The position numbers and the translations under genes were made by a program. The notes under the pieces were generated by a model. The model saw only the letters and a list, made by a program, of their open reading frames with translations. It searched no databases and was not told where the DNA came from. From an uncultured Erysipelotrichaceae bacterium (lineage in GTDB: Bacteria > Bacillota_I > Bacilli_A > Erysipelotrichales > Coprobacillaceae), in contig UQVG01000029.1 in assembly GCA_900544435.1 (NCBI GenBank), positions 1 through 12,799 of the forward strand: a DNA stretch of 12,799 nucleotides, read 5' to 3'. Shown one piece after another: positions 3,832 to 10,331 of the stretch. Within the stretch, counting starts at the first letter, position 1; each line of letters begins with the position of its first letter.

Positions 3832-3855
3832 ATATTTTCCCCCTTTTTGTATCTT

Positions 3856-3884
3856 ATTATAATATAAAAGAATAAAAAATAATA
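3856..3884 (-). promoter_or_regulatory. Candidate promoter of the C69 dipeptidase gene
   Basis: On the minus strand a perfect TATAAT -10 box lies at 3861-3856, giving a start near 3849 and a leader of about 18 nt. The -35 position 17 bp upstream (3884-3879, TATTAT) is a poor match, so the call rests on the -10 box and its position. Confidence 0.5.
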
Positions 3885-3898
3885 TTTATTAGATAAAG

Positions 3899-3928
3899 AA
3901 AAAACATTCATATACATGAATGCTTTTT
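3899..3928 (-). terminator. Rho-independent terminator of the distal PBP gene
   Basis: Read on the minus strand, a perfect 7-bp stem CATTCAT/ATGAATG (3922-3916 and 3911-3905) with a 4-nt loop is followed by six T residues. It lies 4 nt past the stop codon. Flanking A and T runs on both sides could let it act in both directions. Confidence 0.85.
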
Positions 3929-6587
3929 AAGAAATAGAAAAATGAATTGTTTTTTCTGCAGAACTTGAACCATTAGATTCCATAAATTTAACAAAGTATT
4001 GATGTCCACGACTTAAATTTGAAAAAGTTGCATTGTTATGATTAACAGAAGAAAGTAAATTACCACTTCTATCATATAAAGCAATCGTAAGTGCATGGCC
4101 TTGACCTTGTTTTGAAATGACAGCACGAATTGCAGTAGATGAAATAACAGCACCATCATTGATTTGTCCACTATCACAAGAAAGCGAAGCATTAATAGAT
4201 GTTAATTGTAAAGCAATTGTTTTTTCTATTTTATTAGATGTACGATCAGGAGCCTTTTCATAACTATAAAAACCAGTAACCTTTACATTTGATGTAACTG
4301 TAAAATTAAGCGTTCCAGAGGCCGTTGAGAAGCTTTCTCGATGCAATTCTTGACCACTTTCATCACTTACAACTACTGTATAAACAACTTTACCAAATGT
4401 CTTTGTTCCCTCAGTAGCATTTTCATCTGTTGTTGCATTTTCAGGATTATAAGGAGCAAAATTAAATGAAATACTTTGTCCATTAAGACTAACATCAAAT
4501 GAAGTAAGTTCACTTAAATTAAAGACATCACTATCAATACTTTGTGTAGGCGCTGTTCCTTTTTTAAACCAAGCTTGAATAATCATATCTTCACTCATAC
4601 CTTCACCAGGTGAAACATATGGATAAATTCCTTTAACCATTGCTGCCTGTTCAACATCATCGGGTTGTTCTGGATACGATTTTTGACTGCCTTTACTTTG
4701 TAAATGATTTAAAAGCATTTGAACAACTTTACCAGGATAAGCTTTATATTGACTCGTTGTCTTTCCTTTACTAATTCCCTCTTTAGCAAATCCCATCCAA
4801 ACTGAACAAACATAATCTGGAGTATAGGCAGACATCCATAAATCACGGCTCTTTCCAGCCATACCATTTTTAGCAGTACTTGACCAGTTAGATGTTCCTG
4901 TTTTAGCTCCTATATTGTTTATACCAGATACATAAGCATAGTTACCACTACCATTTTTTGTATAATCTAGCATGACTTGTCTTACCATGAAGGCACTTGC
5001 TTTTGAATAAGCACTTTGTTTAGCATTATTTTGAATTTCTTCATCAATATTAAAAGTTTCTCCTGTTTGAACGACTTCTACATAGTTAATGGTATGACTT
5101 TCAGTATATAAACCATTATTGGAAATTGTCGCGTAAGCACTGACCATTTCAAGTGGAGAAATACCATAAGACCAACCACCAATGGCACTTGCAAGTCCAA
5201 TGTTTTCTTTTGACATATCGATTCCAAGAGATTCCATTGCTTCTTTGATTTTATCATTACCGATTTTTTGTTCAACTTCATCAAATGTTTTAATAGCAGG
5301 AATATTCCAAGAATTTTCAAGTGCATTTTCAACAGTGACTAATCCATGGAATTGTCTATCCCAGTTTTTAAACTTACCATTATAATAGTCATCATCATTA
5401 ATAGAATGACCAGTAGACCAATCTAAATTTTCAAAAGCTAAACCATAATCTAAAAACGGTTTAACAGATGAACCAGGTTGTTGTTTTTGAGTGGCATAGT
5501 TATAATTTCCATACGAATAATTACGACCACCAATCACAGCTACGATACGACCATCTTGGCTTGATTGAACGGCACCACCCATACGCATATCTTCATCACC
5601 ATAAGCATATTTTTCACCATTACCAATAGCACTTGCAAGTGTTTGTGTATCCACATCACAATAAGTATAGATATTTAATTGTGTTTTTAAAGGATCTAAA
5701 CTAGTTCTTTTTTTCACTTCTGCTGTTACGATATCTACATAAGCAGCAAGAGTATTGTTATTTGTAGTTGGTGAAACACATAATGTATTTTCTATTTTTG
5801 TAGCTTTTGCTTCTTCATATTCTTCTTGTGTAATATAACCATGATTCATCATAAGTTTTAAAATTGTATTACGTCTTGCTGTTGCTTTATCAAGGCAATA
5901 GTAAGGATCATAGTTATAAGGTGAATTCAAGCTTCCTGCAAGCATGGCTGCTTCTGGAAGAGTTAATTCGCTGACATCTTTATTAAAGTAATACTTACTT
6001 GCTGCCGCAATTCCAATTGAACTTGTACTTCTACCAAAATAGATTTTATTTAAATAAAGAGTTAAAATTTCTTCTTTACTCAAAGCTTTATCTGCTTGGA
6101 TTGCTAGAATAATTTCACTGAATTTTCTTGTGTAGGTTTTTTCGGCATTAGGAAAATAGGTTTTTTTAATCAATTGTTGAGTGATTGTAGAACCACCACC
6201 TCTAATACCACCAGCAATCAAGTTAGACATAGCAGCTTTAGCGATACGTGGTAAGTCAAAACCATCATGTTCAAAAAAACGAGAATCTTCAGCTGCAATA
6301 ACAGCATCAACAAGTACTTGAGGCAAATCTTCATAGGTAATATTTTCTCTTGTACCGTTTTCTTGACTGCCATATGTATAAAGAACTTTACCTTGATCAT
6401 CATACATAACACTAGCTCCAGATGATAAAAGTTTTTTAGCATCAAAAGCATCTGTATCTTTGTAGACACCATAAGCTAAAACACTTACACCAGCAAAAAT
6501 TGTAACTATTAATAAAATAGCTATAGCGATAAAAAGCTTTTTTTTATTTGCTTTTTTCTTTTGAAAGTTATTTGTTTTCGAAGACAT
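3927..6587 (-). CDS. Class A penicillin-binding protein (PBP1), distal copy with Ig/Fn3-like C-terminus
   Basis: An 886-residue bifunctional peptidoglycan synthase. The order is a short Lys-rich cytoplasmic tail, a membrane anchor (about 17-42), a GT51 glycosyltransferase domain with EDSRFFEH (100-107, catalytic E100), GGSTITQQ (131-138) and E158 of the third motif, and a transpeptidase domain with SxxK S373-K376, SxN S426-N428 and KTGT at 562-565. All catalytic motifs are intact. After about residue 690 comes a beta-rich Ig/Fn3-like extension of about 190 residues, absent from the upstream paralog. The frame opens 19 codons further upstream (6644), but the ATG at 6587 has GGAGGT at a 5-nt spacing and removes a non-conserved tail, so it was chosen. 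The gene has its own candidate promoter and terminator. Residues 157-390 are encoded by DNA almost identical to the paralog. Confidence 0.93.
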   Translation of the reverse strand: MSSKTNNFQKKKANKKKLFIAIAILLIVTIFAGVSVLAYGVYKDTDAFDAKKLLSSGASVMYDDQGKVLYTYGSQENGTRENITYEDLPQVLVDAVIAAEDSRFFEHDGFDLPRIAKAAMSNLIAGGIRGGGSTITQQLIKKTYFPNAEKTYTRKFSEIILAIQADKALSKEEILTLYLNKIYFGRSTSSIGIAAASKYYFNKDVSELTLPEAAMLAGSLNSPYNYDPYYCLDKATARRNTILKLMMNHGYITQEEYEEAKATKIENTLCVSPTTNNNTLAAYVDIVTAEVKKRTSLDPLKTQLNIYTYCDVDTQTLASAIGNGEKYAYGDEDMRMGGAVQSSQDGRIVAVIGGRNYSYGNYNYATQKQQPGSSVKPFLDYGLAFENLDWSTGHSINDDDYYNGKFKNWDRQFHGLVTVENALENSWNIPAIKTFDEVEQKIGNDKIKEAMESLGIDMSKENIGLASAIGGWSYGISPLEMVSAYATISNNGLYTESHTINYVEVVQTGETFNIDEEIQNNAKQSAYSKASAFMVRQVMLDYTKNGSGNYAYVSGINNIGAKTGTSNWSSTAKNGMAGKSRDLWMSAYTPDYVCSVWMGFAKEGISKGKTTSQYKAYPGKVVQMLLNHLQSKGSQKSYPEQPDDVEQAAMVKGIYPYVSPGEGMSEDMIIQAWFKKGTAPTQSIDSDVFNLSELTSFDVSLNGQSISFNFAPYNPENATTDENATEGTKTFGKVVYTVVVSDESGQELHRESFSTASGTLNFTVTSNVKVTGFYSYEKAPDRTSNKIEKTIALQLTSINASLSCDSGQINDGAVISSTAIRAVISKQGQGHALTIALYDRSGNLLSSVNHNNATFSNLSRGHQYFVKFMESNGSSSAEKTIHFSIS
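5417..6119 (-). repeat. Copy A of 703-bp near-identical tract shared by the two PBP genes
   Basis: Aligned base by base with 7780-8482 (offset 2363), the only difference found is at 6081 (C) versus 8444 (T). Positions 5417-6080 are identical over 664 bp. Bases outside both ends diverge at once (5416 versus 7779, 6120 versus 8483). It encodes residues 157-390, from GT51 motif 3 through the SxxK serine. Confidence 0.95.
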
Positions 6588-6592
6588 AAGAT

Positions 6593-6598
6593 ACCTCC
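6593..6598 (-). promoter_or_regulatory. Ribosome binding site setting the distal PBP start
   Basis: GGAGGT on the minus strand lies 5 nt before the ATG at 6587. No comparable site was found in front of the in-frame upstream start at 6644, so this site decides the start. Confidence 0.85.
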
Positions 6599-6614
6599 AT
6601 CTTTTCTTTATACA

Positions 6615-6644
6615 AGTATACCTTATTTTGTATGATAAAAGCAA
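6615..6644 (-). promoter_or_regulatory. Candidate promoter of the distal PBP gene
   Basis: On the minus strand TTGCTT (6644-6639), an 18-bp spacer and TATACT (6620-6615) form a plausible sigma-A promoter between the upstream gene's terminator and the ATG at 6587. The -10 box matches five of six consensus bases and the -35 box only three. The start would fall near 6608, giving a leader of about 20 nt. Confidence 0.55.
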
Positions 6645-6655
6645 ATTTTGAGGAA

Positions 6656-6682
6656 AAATAAAAAGCCAACTTAAAGTTGACT
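6656..6682 (-). terminator. Terminator between the two PBP genes
   Basis: On the minus strand a 7-bp stem (6682-6676 with 6670-6664, one G.U pair, 5-nt loop) directly follows the upstream PBP stop and leads into a T-rich run, TTTTTATTTTT. It suggests the two PBP genes are not simply one transcript. Confidence 0.75.
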
Positions 6683-8938
6683 TTATTGATTGTTTCCTTG
6701 ATTTTGAGAAGATTGGTCTCCACCACCGGTATTACCACCTGTATTATCTCCAGTATTGTCACCAGTATTACCGCCGGTATTACCACCTGTATTATCTCCA
6801 GAATGATCACCGCTAGTTGTATTACCATTGTTTGTGTTATTACTATCGCTATTTTGACCATTTTGATTATTTTGAGATGATTGATTATCATTTGATGTTT
6901 GATCATCAGTATTTTCAGTTGTTTCTTCTGTTGTTTCTTCAGTTAAAGAAGCATGTGATTCATGTTTTGAACCTTTTTTATAATAATCATCACCATCATG
7001 AGTCACTGTTGATGGTTGATCAGGATATGATTTTTTACTATTTTTACTTTGTAAATGTTTTAATAACATTTGAACCACTTTACCAGGATATGCTTTATAA
7101 CGACTTGTTGTTTTACCTTTTTCGATACCTTCTTTACCAAATCCCATCCAAACTGAACAAATGTAATTAGGAGTATAAGCAGACATCCATAAATCACGGC
7201 TCTTTCCAGCCATACCATTTTTAGCAGTACTTCCCCAGTTAGAAGTTCCAGTTTTAGCTCCTACATTAGAAAGACCAGATAAATAAGCATAGTTACCACT
7301 ACCATTTTTTGTATAATCAAGCATCACATGTCTTATCATAAAAGCACTTGCTTTTGAATAAGCACTTTGTTTAGCGTTATTTTGAATTTCTTCATCAATG
7401 TTATATTTTTCGCCTGTTTGGACAACTTCTACATAGTTAATAGTATGACTTTCAGTATATAAACCATTATTGGAAATTGTCGCATAAGCACTTGCCATTT
7501 CAAGAGGAGAGATTCCTCTATCCCATCCACCAATAGCGTAAGATAAGTTTGTTGGATTAGTTTCTTTTGACATATCAATTCCAAGTGATTCCATTGCTGA
7601 AACAACACCAGATTTACCAATTTCTTTTGTTACTTCTTCATAAGTTTTAATAGCAGGAATATTCCAAGAATTTTCAAGTGCACTTGTAAGTGTCACTGTT
7701 CCATGGAATTGTCCATCCCAGTTTTTAGGAGTAAACTTTCCTTTAGAATAAGGAGTATCTTCCAAAGTTTTTCCTGTACACCAATCTAAATTTTCAAAAG
7801 CTAAACCATAATCTAAAAACGGTTTAACAGATGAACCAGGTTGTTGTTTTTGAGTGGCATAGTTATAATTTCCATACGAATAATTACGACCACCAATCAC
7901 AGCTACGATACGACCATCTTGGCTTGATTGAACGGCACCACCCATACGCATATCTTCATCACCATAAGCATATTTTTCACCATTACCAATAGCACTTGCA
8001 AGTGTTTGTGTATCCACATCACAATAAGTATAGATATTTAATTGTGTTTTTAAAGGATCTAAACTAGTTCTTTTTTTCACTTCTGCTGTTACGATATCTA
8101 CATAAGCAGCAAGAGTATTGTTATTTGTAGTTGGTGAAACACATAATGTATTTTCTATTTTTGTAGCTTTTGCTTCTTCATATTCTTCTTGTGTAATATA
8201 ACCATGATTCATCATAAGTTTTAAAATTGTATTACGTCTTGCTGTTGCTTTATCAAGGCAATAGTAAGGATCATAGTTATAAGGTGAATTCAAGCTTCCT
8301 GCAAGCATGGCTGCTTCTGGAAGAGTTAATTCGCTGACATCTTTATTAAAGTAATACTTACTTGCTGCCGCAATTCCAATTGAACTTGTACTTCTACCAA
8401 AATAGATTTTATTTAAATAAAGAGTTAAAATTTCTTCTTTACTTAAAGCTTTATCTGCTTGGATTGCTAGAATAATTTCACTTAATTTACGAGAGTACGT
8501 TTTTTGAGCATCAGGGAAATAGGTTTTTTTAATCAATTGTTGAGTGATTGTAGAACCACCACCTGTAATACCTCCCGCTTTTAAATTAGAAAGCGCAGCT
8601 TTAACAATACGAGGTAAGTCAAAACCATTATGTTCAAAGAAACGAGAGTCTTCAGCAGCTACAATAGCATCTACTAAAACTTGTGGTAGATCATCATAGG
8701 TAATATTTTCTCTTGTTCCATTTTCTTGGCTACCATACGTATACATAACATTTCCGTTACTGTCATACATGACACTAGCTCCAGATGATAATAATTTTTC
8801 AGAATCAAAGGCAGCTGTATCCTTATATATACTGTAACCAAAAATGCATGAAAAAACTAAGATCAAGCAAAGAATAAGCATTGTTACAACTGTAATGATT
8901 TTTTTTGAATTTAATTTTTTTGTTTTTTGTCTTTTCAT
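6683..8938 (-). CDS. ponA: Class A penicillin-binding protein PBP1 (recU-linked copy) with disordered tail
   Basis: A 751-residue bifunctional peptidoglycan synthase. It has a Lys-rich cytoplasmic tail, a membrane anchor (about 13-37), GT51 motifs EDSRFFEH (96-103) and GGSTITQQ (127-134), and transpeptidase motifs SxxK (S369-K372), SxN (S424-N426) and KTGT (562-565), all intact. After about residue 640 there is no folded domain. Instead about 100 residues are rich in Asn, Gly, Thr, Asp, Ser and Gln, ending in GDNTGGNTG-type repeats. Its ATG overlaps the recU stop as ATGA (8938-8935), and GAGGT lies 7 nt upstream. The recU-ponA order is the conserved Bacillota arrangement, so this is the likely ponA orthologue. 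Residues 153-386 share a nearly identical DNA tract with the downstream paralog. Confidence 0.94.
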   Translation of the reverse strand: MKRQKTKKLNSKKIITVVTMLILCLILVFSCIFGYSIYKDTAAFDSEKLLSSGASVMYDSNGNVMYTYGSQENGTRENITYDDLPQVLVDAIVAAEDSRFFEHNGFDLPRIVKAALSNLKAGGITGGGSTITQQLIKKTYFPDAQKTYSRKLSEIILAIQADKALSKEEILTLYLNKIYFGRSTSSIGIAAASKYYFNKDVSELTLPEAAMLAGSLNSPYNYDPYYCLDKATARRNTILKLMMNHGYITQEEYEEAKATKIENTLCVSPTTNNNTLAAYVDIVTAEVKKRTSLDPLKTQLNIYTYCDVDTQTLASAIGNGEKYAYGDEDMRMGGAVQSSQDGRIVAVIGGRNYSYGNYNYATQKQQPGSSVKPFLDYGLAFENLDWCTGKTLEDTPYSKGKFTPKNWDGQFHGTVTLTSALENSWNIPAIKTYEEVTKEIGKSGVVSAMESLGIDMSKETNPTNLSYAIGGWDRGISPLEMASAYATISNNGLYTESHTINYVEVVQTGEKYNIDEEIQNNAKQSAYSKASAFMIRHVMLDYTKNGSGNYAYLSGLSNVGAKTGTSNWGSTAKNGMAGKSRDLWMSAYTPNYICSVWMGFGKEGIEKGKTTSRYKAYPGKVVQMLLKHLQSKNSKKSYPDQPSTVTHDGDDYYKKGSKHESHASLTEETTEETTENTDDQTSNDNQSSQNNQNGQNSDSNNTNNGNTTSGDHSGDNTGGNTGGNTGDNTGDNTGGNTGGGDQSSQNQGNNQ
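6722..6805 (-). repeat. 12-bp tandem repeats encoding the Asn-Thr-Gly-(Gly/Asp) tail
   Basis: Six 12-bp units at 6722-6793 (for example ACCACCTGTATT on the + strand) plus a degenerate seventh to 6805 encode NTGG/NTGD repeats at the C-terminus of the PBP. Units 1-3 (6722-6757) and 5-7 (6770-6805) form a 48-bp higher-order repeat differing at only a few bases. Confidence 0.85.
6918..6941 (-). repeat. Two 12-bp repeats encoding the EETT/EETTE stretch
   Basis: GTTGTTTCTTCT and GTTGTTTCTTCA are adjacent direct repeats on the + strand. They encode the acidic Glu-Glu-Thr-Thr repeat at about residues 667-674 of the recU-linked PBP, at the start of its low-complexity tail. Confidence 0.7.
7780..8482 (-). 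repeat. Copy B of 703-bp near-identical tract shared by the two PBP genes
   Basis: Partner of 5417-6119, with one mismatch at 8444. It encodes residues 153-386 of the recU-linked PBP. The copies are direct repeats 2363 bp apart, so recombination between them could delete or duplicate the segment between and create a fused PBP. Confidence 0.95.
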
Positions 8939-9522
8939 TTAAATACCTCACAATAATATTGATCAATAATTTCTAAATAATGGAGACGAGGAAGAAATCC
9001 TTGTCTTATTAAATGACCATTTTCTTTTATTGTTTCATAACGAAGGGATTTACGATCGTTTTTTCTATATGCTTTTACCATAAAAGCAGCATCTAGTAAA
9101 TAAACTTCATTCACTTTAGTAAAAGCAATAATTAAAAAAGCAATACCTCCATGATGAATAACTTTATCAAGATGGTTAATTTGATGTAAAGAAATATTTG
9201 TAAAAGGAAAAGATAGAGTCTTTGTTTCTTTAGCTTCAAAATCAATATATCTTCCTTTATAAATACCATTATAATCAGTTGTTGAAGGTGTTCTAAAATA
9301 AGCTTCAACTATTTTTGCAGCGCTTCTTTCTGGATAAGAAACTTTTACAATTTGAATAGGTGTTGGCTTTTTATGAATCACAGCAATATCATGAGATAAA
9401 TAATATTCATTTGTTAAGTTAATATCTTCTTCTAAGTTCATCCCACGGTGTGCTGTATTATGCTTACCCTCAATCATAGATGTATAATGATTATTTTTTT
9501 TCTTATTTGGATAATTAACCAT
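8935..9522 (-). CDS. recU: Holliday junction resolvase RecU
   Basis: A 195-residue protein matching RecU, the Bacillota resolvase that cuts four-way junctions during recombinational repair and chromosome segregation. The HRGMNLEEDI segment (25-34) corresponds to the family's NRG-x-x-E region. The nuclease core has D83 in TTDYNGIYKG (81-90) and the D94, E96, K98 triad in DFEAKET (94-100). The ATG at 9522-9520 is preceded on the minus strand by AAGGAGT, with about 5 nt spacing. Its TGA stop overlaps the downstream PBP start, so translation is coupled, as in the recU-ponA operon of B. subtilis. An extended -10 promoter lies about 30 nt upstream, facing away from gpsB. Confidence 0.95.
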   Translation of the reverse strand: MVNYPNKKKNNHYTSMIEGKHNTAHRGMNLEEDINLTNEYYLSHDIAVIHKKPTPIQIVKVSYPERSAAKIVEAYFRTPSTTDYNGIYKGRYIDFEAKETKTLSFPFTNISLHQINHLDKVIHHGGIAFLIIAFTKVNEVYLLDAAFMVKAYRKNDRKSLRYETIKENGHLIRQGFLPRLHYLEIIDQYYCEVFK

Positions 9523-9994: not shown

Positions 9995-10331
9995 CAAATG
10001 ACAGATAATCGCTGCTTCATTGAAGTAGAGGAAAGTCCAGGCTGCCACAATCTGCGATGATTGTAGTGTTTGTGCCTCACGAATCAATAAGTGAGGGTAG
10101 TGTAAACTAACGACAGAAGGGAAACCTAAGGGTAACTATGGTAGAACTTCATAAATGGCTCCACAGAGACAATTCCATAGGAAACTATGGCTGAAAAGAG
10201 GAAAGCTCCGCAAGGCAGAAACCCAAATTTGGTAGGGGAATCTTTAAATCGGAATTGAACGAGATAAAGGACGCGTAAGCGTAGATAAATGATTATTTAA
10301 TACAGAACTTGGCTTATTATCATTTGTTTTT
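9995..10331 (+). ncRNA. rnpB: RNase P RNA (catalytic subunit), probably type B
   Basis: The ribozyme that removes 5' leaders from pre-tRNAs. Terminal helix P1 pairs ACAAATGA (9994-10001) with TCATTTGT (10320-10327). A 7-bp hairpin at about 10012-10028 (P3) leads into the universal GAGGAAAGTCC (5' strand of P4). AGAAACCCAAATTTGGTAGG near 10220-10240 is the conserved core, ACGC-GTAA-GCGT near 10271-10282 is a GNRA hairpin, and ACAGAACTTGGCTTA near 10302-10316 supplies the 3' strand of P4. A perfect CCATAG-GAAA-CTATGG hairpin sits at 10175-10190. The pattern resembles the Bacillus type B RNA; at about 335 nt it is compact. P1 starts at the last base of the gpsB stop. A weak internal promoter (TTATCA at 9956, TATTTA at 9978) is possible; processing from the gpsB transcript is the alternative. 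Exact ends are inferred. Confidence 0.93.

Follow-up and report, generated by a model that had tools for sequence, protein, structure and literature searches.

We consider it very probable that an old, recU-linked tandem duplication of a class A penicillin-binding protein (PBP) gene is undergoing interlocus gene conversion, the latest event having copied about 0.7 kb, most likely from the upstream gene, PBP-B, into its downstream neighbor, PBP-A. At the level of sequence, alignments and regional trees show an old pair, a young block, sharp edges and region-specific histories, and recent gene conversion appears well supported as the best explanation of the block. The initial annotation of the window (the whole 12,799-nucleotide stretch of DNA analyzed here) had already proposed recent gene conversion, and this proposal is borne out by the contrast in synonymous divergence (dS) along the genes, by the lack of the block in relatives and by conflicting trees for different regions.

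The tandem PBP genes and their near-identical block

Along the minus strand, the order is recU, PBP-B and PBP-A, with the two PBP genes in tandem. The recU family gene (8935..9522; PF03838, E 1.3e-61) overlaps the start of PBP-B by 4 bases. PBP-B (6683..8938, 751 aa), the upstream member adjoining recU, has a low-complexity Asn/Gly/Thr tail, and its best PDB match is S. aureus PBP2 (2olu, E 3.7e-91). PBP-A (ORF 3927..6587, 886 aa), the downstream member, has a long C-terminal tail; its ATG is at 6587 with GGAGG 6 bases 5' of it, and the database protein P0001 has the same length of 886 aa. Residue numbers of PBP-A refer to the translation of 3927-6590, in which this ATG is residue 2. According to Pfam, both proteins combine GT51 and transpeptidase domains in one chain (PF00912 and PF00905, above the Pfam cut-off), and a motif search, with PBP-B aligned to S. 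aureus PBP2, found SSVK, SWN and KTG in each, which we take to be the SxxK, SxN and KTG motifs. SSVK lies within the block in PBP-A (5460..5471) as well as in PBP-B (7823..7834), while NSWN, which includes SWN, lies outside it (5304..5315 in PBP-A and 7661-7672 in PBP-B) in the segment that tracks gene orthology; all of these are on the minus strand. By domains and motifs, both genes are predicted to encode class A PBPs, and both read as complete open frames with start and stop and with no silent-cassette form. A consensus scan placed a terminator-like hairpin between them (6662..6684, minus strand), which is a weak candidate given one hairpin found vs 1.8 expected in shuffles.

Three further features of the neighborhood were observed. 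The PBP-B tail is coded by a 12/24-bp tandem repeat of the Gly-Asn-Thr type (6710-6823), the length of which is possibly strain-variable, and an RNase P RNA of class B (RF00011, 238.9 bits) lies at 9997-10321, directly 3' of a DivIVA-family gene. Faecalibacillus intestinalis is a close relative of the source of the window (87.4% and 88.6% nucleotide identity in the two longest aligned stretches), and its locus (L001) has a gene for a PAS-GGDEF protein (12599-14227; PF00990, PF08447) between PBP-A and a C69 peptidase gene; ORFs similar in length and ending stand at this position in two other loci (L018 and L003), and the window has just 95 bases there (3832-3926), so that the gene seems to have been lost.

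The block occupies 5417..6119 in PBP-A (codons 158-391) and 7780..8482 in PBP-B (residues 153-386), on the minus strand in both. Re-alignment and a repeat search confirmed the coordinates and counts given earlier: the copies have exactly 1 mismatch in 703 bp (6081 C and 8444 T on the plus strand), which is silent (TTG/TTA, Leu), and the longest exact repeat of the window, 664 bp, starts at 5417 and 7780. As had been described, the block runs through the SxxK motif: it starts directly behind RK(F/L) of the GT domain (RKF) and stops 14 codons beyond SSVK, taking in the last part of the GT domain, the GT-TP junction and the first transpeptidase motif. Over its 234 codons, dS is 0.006 (1.0 synonymous difference over 162.3 synonymous sites) and replacements are absent, vs a dS of 0.72 in the GT part upstream (97 codons), 0.56 in the following 94 codons and 0.41 in the KTG part (160 codons). 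Uniformly low dS along the genes, which the initial annotation had named as one of two findings that would refute its proposal, is itself refuted (0.006 vs 0.41-0.72). Its description of lower-identity flanks with silent changes around 5041-5150 also stands, with 90% identity in bin 5046-5135, where 6 of the 28 identical residues carry silent changes; the corresponding values are 92% and 5 of 28 for bin 4956-5045, and 70% and 7 of 22 for bin 5136-5225. Finally, among the 1177 sites polymorphic in ten tandem copies from five genomes, the longest identical run of the window pair spans 314 sites, a length that 0 of 10,000 shuffles reached (maximum 41), and 178 vs 47 when only third positions are used; the identical run is far beyond chance.

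Because the block contains catalytic parts, it might be thought that strong constraint on the protein or the mRNA holds it identical. However, copies A and B of F. intestinalis are 68-92% identical within the same region (30-codon bins), differing by up to 32% per bin, and 18 near-relative B proteins are more variable in the block than elsewhere. The F. intestinalis block rules out constraint, to which we assign a probability close to nil. It also upholds the earlier argument that protein selection alone could not keep the silent sites, and the comparison with homologues in related genomes that the initial annotation had suggested thus found the block identity to be absent in F. intestinalis.

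The second concern is an assembly artefact, in which assembly or polishing gave both copies a single consensus sequence. Short reads handle near-identical tandem repeats badly, and contigs of two related genomes (G005 and G006) end inside PBP genes. A collapse, however, presupposes near-identical copies, whereas 8-30% of the bases differ in the flank bins closest to the block, and the F. intestinalis copies, whose longest exact repeat is 45 bp, were assembled apart. Moreover, the two copies are not exact duplicates, given the mismatch at 6081 (near one edge, however), and a further protein pair (P0001 and P0050, see below) shares these edges but carries another allele. If copies that differ as much as those of F. 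intestinalis L001 had been collapsed, no 664-bp exact match would have resulted, which weakens the case for an artefact, and we regard it as unlikely.

Histories of the individual regions and distribution of the pair

Trees were based on eleven sequences (ten tandem copies and a Thomasclavelia outgroup, with two further aligned outgroups left out), and for each region five candidate trees were compared by AU and SH tests and one free tree was inferred. For the block, species pairing was best (AU 1.0) and the ortholog tree had a value of 2e-66; in the free tree, window A and B join with a support of 100, F. intestinalis B comes next (93), followed by F. intestinalis A, so that the two F. intestinalis copies are not sisters, and the copies of F. 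faecis and S9M mix. For residues 391-485, which include SxN, the ortholog tree was best (AU 1.0) and species pairing had 8e-43; the free tree splits the window, F. intestinalis, F. faecis and S9M copies by gene, that is, in four of five genomes, and joins the CAMFRJ pair with itself (support 80). Because A and B separate by gene in this segment, the pair is old in the four-genome group. Support for gene conversion thus comes from the silent-site identity in a sharply bounded block together with the conflict between these two trees.

These trees also bear on the idea that recent unequal crossing-over or duplication made the pair and that the flanks then diverged fast. Crossing-over between repeats would give proteins with a B-like start and an A-like end, as found for 25 of 35 typed A-length database proteins (see below), but the split by gene in residues 391-485 in four genomes indicates an old pair, and a flank dS of 0.41-0.72 is not recent. 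With this segment separating by gene in four of five genomes and the block joining window A and B at 100, recent duplication was ruled out, and we consider it extremely improbable; at the molecular level, a crossover followed by loss could nevertheless have led to the same result.

Gene conversion may have reached further than the block. In the GT part upstream of it, within-lineage grouping of A and B was best (AU 1.0; ortholog tree 3e-4), and the same holds for the KTG part (AU 0.994; ortholog tree 0.006, but not rejected by the SH test at 0.06). The within-lineage join has supports of 94 (GT part) and 92 (KTG part) for the CAMFRJ pair and is moderate for F. faecis/S9M (76 and 74); for the lineage of the window, it is absent in the GT part and has a support of 35 in the KTG part. 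For the first 60 residues, the test did not distinguish the ortholog tree (0.31) from the within-lineage tree (0.70), and it rejected species pairing. In four of five free trees, the two CAMFRJ copies join each other, and this pair could therefore be a separate duplication. Altogether, exchange elsewhere in the core (in the KTG part, and in the GT part in relatives) is likely, older and less certain than that in the block, and older exchange outside the block in the window's own lineage is weakly supported by these trees. Pairwise identities fit this division: in residues 391-476, window A and B are 65-76% identical with small indels vs 82-90% for orthologs, while in the KTG part they are 82-92% identical per bin, about the level of orthologs of the two species (82-91%). 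The initial annotation had held that the unconverted parts were left to diverge; this applies to the SxN segment, for which the ortholog tree is best, and not to the KTG part with its A vs B identity of 82-92% and its signs of older exchange.

The run-length test gave varied results in relatives. Identical runs of 22 sites in the F. faecis pair and of 37 sites in the S9M pair were matched in 2 and 0 of 3000 shuffles, respectively; the F. intestinalis pair was marginal (67 of 3000 shuffles, and 574 of 3000 for third positions), and the test detected no signal in the CAMFRJ pair (2181 of 3000). The latter two results mean that recent exchange is not visible in every genome.

To place the pair in a wider context, six genomes of the genus were searched, and three of them (G001, G002 and G004) have the adjacent pair; in G003, the pair lies on two separate contigs (L002/L003), and the assemblies of G005 and G006 break at the PBP genes. 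The breaks lie inside PBP genes at the end of C55 in G005 and at the starts of C86 and C74 in G006. They were considered as evidence for long identical tracts and rejected as such: the final 200 bases of the G005 contig match nowhere else in the G005 genome, in which recU was not found either, and the breaks therefore prove nothing. Of 43 genomes searched in the family, 40 gave a match with an E value of 1e-100 or lower. Outside the genus, the genomes with several matches (G021-G024 and G030) have them on different contigs or opposite strands; in each of G021-G024, three strong PBP matches lie on different contigs or strands, which looks like an independent expansion. Among 78 loci examined, recU adjoins a PBP in 67, nearly always one PBP, and a second PBP directly downstream is present in 3 of these 67, all from genomes of the genus search; 50 have no second PBP within at least 3 kb of downstream sequence, and 14 are too short to tell. 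In this survey, the tandem recU-linked PBP duplication was found only in the Faecalibacillus group.

Variants of the block in database proteins and probable direction of copying

Database proteins, the best 120 of 982 and the best 120 of 1424 (7998 and 7999 candidates scored), came from public genomes and metagenomes, and most of the variants appear to be metagenomic, judging by their source tag. Matching of contigs yielded one pair of A and B variants: P0001 (A, a cluster of 65 members) and P0050 (B) are each reported from a contig of 39,796 bases and most likely derive from one and the same contig. Like the window proteins, the two are identical at A residues 158-391 and different at 157 and 392. 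In comparison with the window, both have the same seven replacements (A 297, 305, 312, 313, 317, 320 and 365), and there is otherwise a single difference, at B residue 22 (the codon before the A start lies outside P0001). Identity of P0001 and P0050 with another allele implies that the copies were re-homogenised or that a new patch was copied across.

Variation among B proteins points in the same direction. We compared 18 B proteins with near-identical flanks among the matches listed (the window protein, P0049-P0064 and P0066); P0044 and P0047, which are B-flanked with A-like stretches beyond the block, were left out, and including them would raise the variation outside. Variable residues number 28 of 234 in the block vs 11 of 517 outside (Fisher p 9.8e-8, nominal as the sequences are related), or 27 vs 5 without singletons. 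There are 26 two-allele sites (at 195, 234-249, 258-281, 305-320 and 365), all four combinations occur at 96 of 325 site pairs, and in patches 258-281 and 305-320 the alleles divide into one similar to F. intestinalis A and one similar to F. intestinalis B. Such reshuffled patches look like the pattern of repeated exchange between two paralogs, to which exchange between strains can add, and conversion has probably been recurrent in the same block across strains.

In addition, 62 database proteins among the matches listed were typed with a 3-point margin. Among the 35 of A length, 25 have a B-like start and an A-like end with varying switch points, 4 are A-like throughout or have an undecided middle, 4 are A-like at both ends with B stretches inside, and 2 have parts unlike either reference; the shorter P0046 has an A-like start and a B-like end. 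The B/A mosaics (P0002-P0035) could be true deletions or conversions, repeat-deletion fusions or assembly chimeras, and the database B variants may partly be assembly chimeras as well. One database PBP (P0070) carries an extra PF01728 domain annotation and is possibly a contig chimera.

The mosaic B alleles of related proteins, with patches in common with F. intestinalis, raise the question of whether one foreign tract from another strain entered both genes by horizontal transfer. This would take two separate imports that share their edges and differ by one base, whereas copying within the genome is one step, and on this argument of parsimony we judge the double import highly unlikely; import into one gene followed by copying fits the gene conversion model itself. 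When we looked for a foreign tract, the window block was found to join F. intestinalis B (support 93) at ordinary divergence, and some B variants to have patches in common with F. intestinalis A.

Returning to gene conversion between the two copies, a donor test favored PBP-B as the donor (AU 0.962) over PBP-A (0.006) and over neither (0.0485). Informative sites number 68 for a B donor vs 43 for an A donor, and just 35 vs 30 at third positions. Copying from B to A thus seems the likelier direction, with support that is moderate and short of proof.

Mechanism, known systems and implications

In our model of the exchange, homologous recombination, most likely of the RecA type, between direct repeats 2363 bp apart would copy a stretch that runs from late in the GT domain across the GT-TP junction to beyond SxxK in the transpeptidase domain. 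The sharp downstream edge would fall where the genes pair poorly (65-76% identity with small indels in residues 391-476), and the unconverted segment would be shielded by its own divergence. The recombination rate, and with it gene conversion, falls exponentially as divergence grows (PMC12046097), and a minimal efficient processing segment has been described (PMC3924818). In other strains, exchange would recur in the same block and reshuffle two old allele types. The neighboring recU, which adjoins a PBP in 67 of 78 loci and nearly always a single one, would need no special role in the copying.

It is tempting to speculate that the tandem pair acts as a two-copy allele shuffler, in which two-way conversion recombines two old block versions and the enzymes stay distinct through their SxN segments and tails, a reading that we regard as possible but doubtful. 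Patches near A residues 234-249, 258-281, 305-320 and 365 would then form strain-specific combinations common to both enzymes, and their diversity could be favored by selective agents such as phages, bacteriocins or cell-wall drugs.

The pair resembles several known systems without matching any of them. Mosaic PBP genes of streptococci and Neisseria receive their blocks from other strains or species; the present case is similar in the block-wise replacement across catalytic parts of a PBP gene, but the best donor of the window block is the neighboring paralog. In the recU-ponA arrangement, a class A PBP of Bacillota adjoins recU; the window likewise has GT51 and transpeptidase domains with recU upstream, and unlike the usual arrangement it has a tandem second copy directly downstream (3 of 67 recU-PBP loci examined). 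pilE and vlsE undergo antigenic variation by gene conversion and, like the PBP pair, show patchwork alleles in one region between fixed flanks, whereas both PBP copies are complete open frames rather than silent cassettes.

The closest parallels are paralogs within bacterial genomes. Interlocus gene conversion and concerted evolution have been described for 26 genes (PMC6053082), and gene conversion with exchange both ways for PE/PPE genes (PMC12046097). In both, as in the PBP pair, paralogs within a genome are closer than orthologs, at silent sites too and in sharp tracts; in the PBP pair, by contrast, a single catalytic block is homogenised, and the SxN segment and the two ends retain histories of their own. 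The main text of PMC6053082 nowhere uses the words penicillin, peptidoglycan or transpeptidase, and the literature found on PBP gene conversion or concerted evolution and on Faecalibacillus contains, judged by title, nothing on this subject. Thus, the process is known, and the PBP pair appears to be a new instance of it.

For the locus itself, the finding marks a place where short-read assemblies may break or fuse, and it bears on how PBP phylogenies and PBP alleles in metagenomes are read. For the bacterium, it means that both enzymes of a strain have one block in common while their SxN segments and tails are distinct, which makes the pair a clear-cut natural example of segmental gene conversion in a cell-wall synthase and suggests that PBP diversity may arise within one genome, besides uptake from other species.
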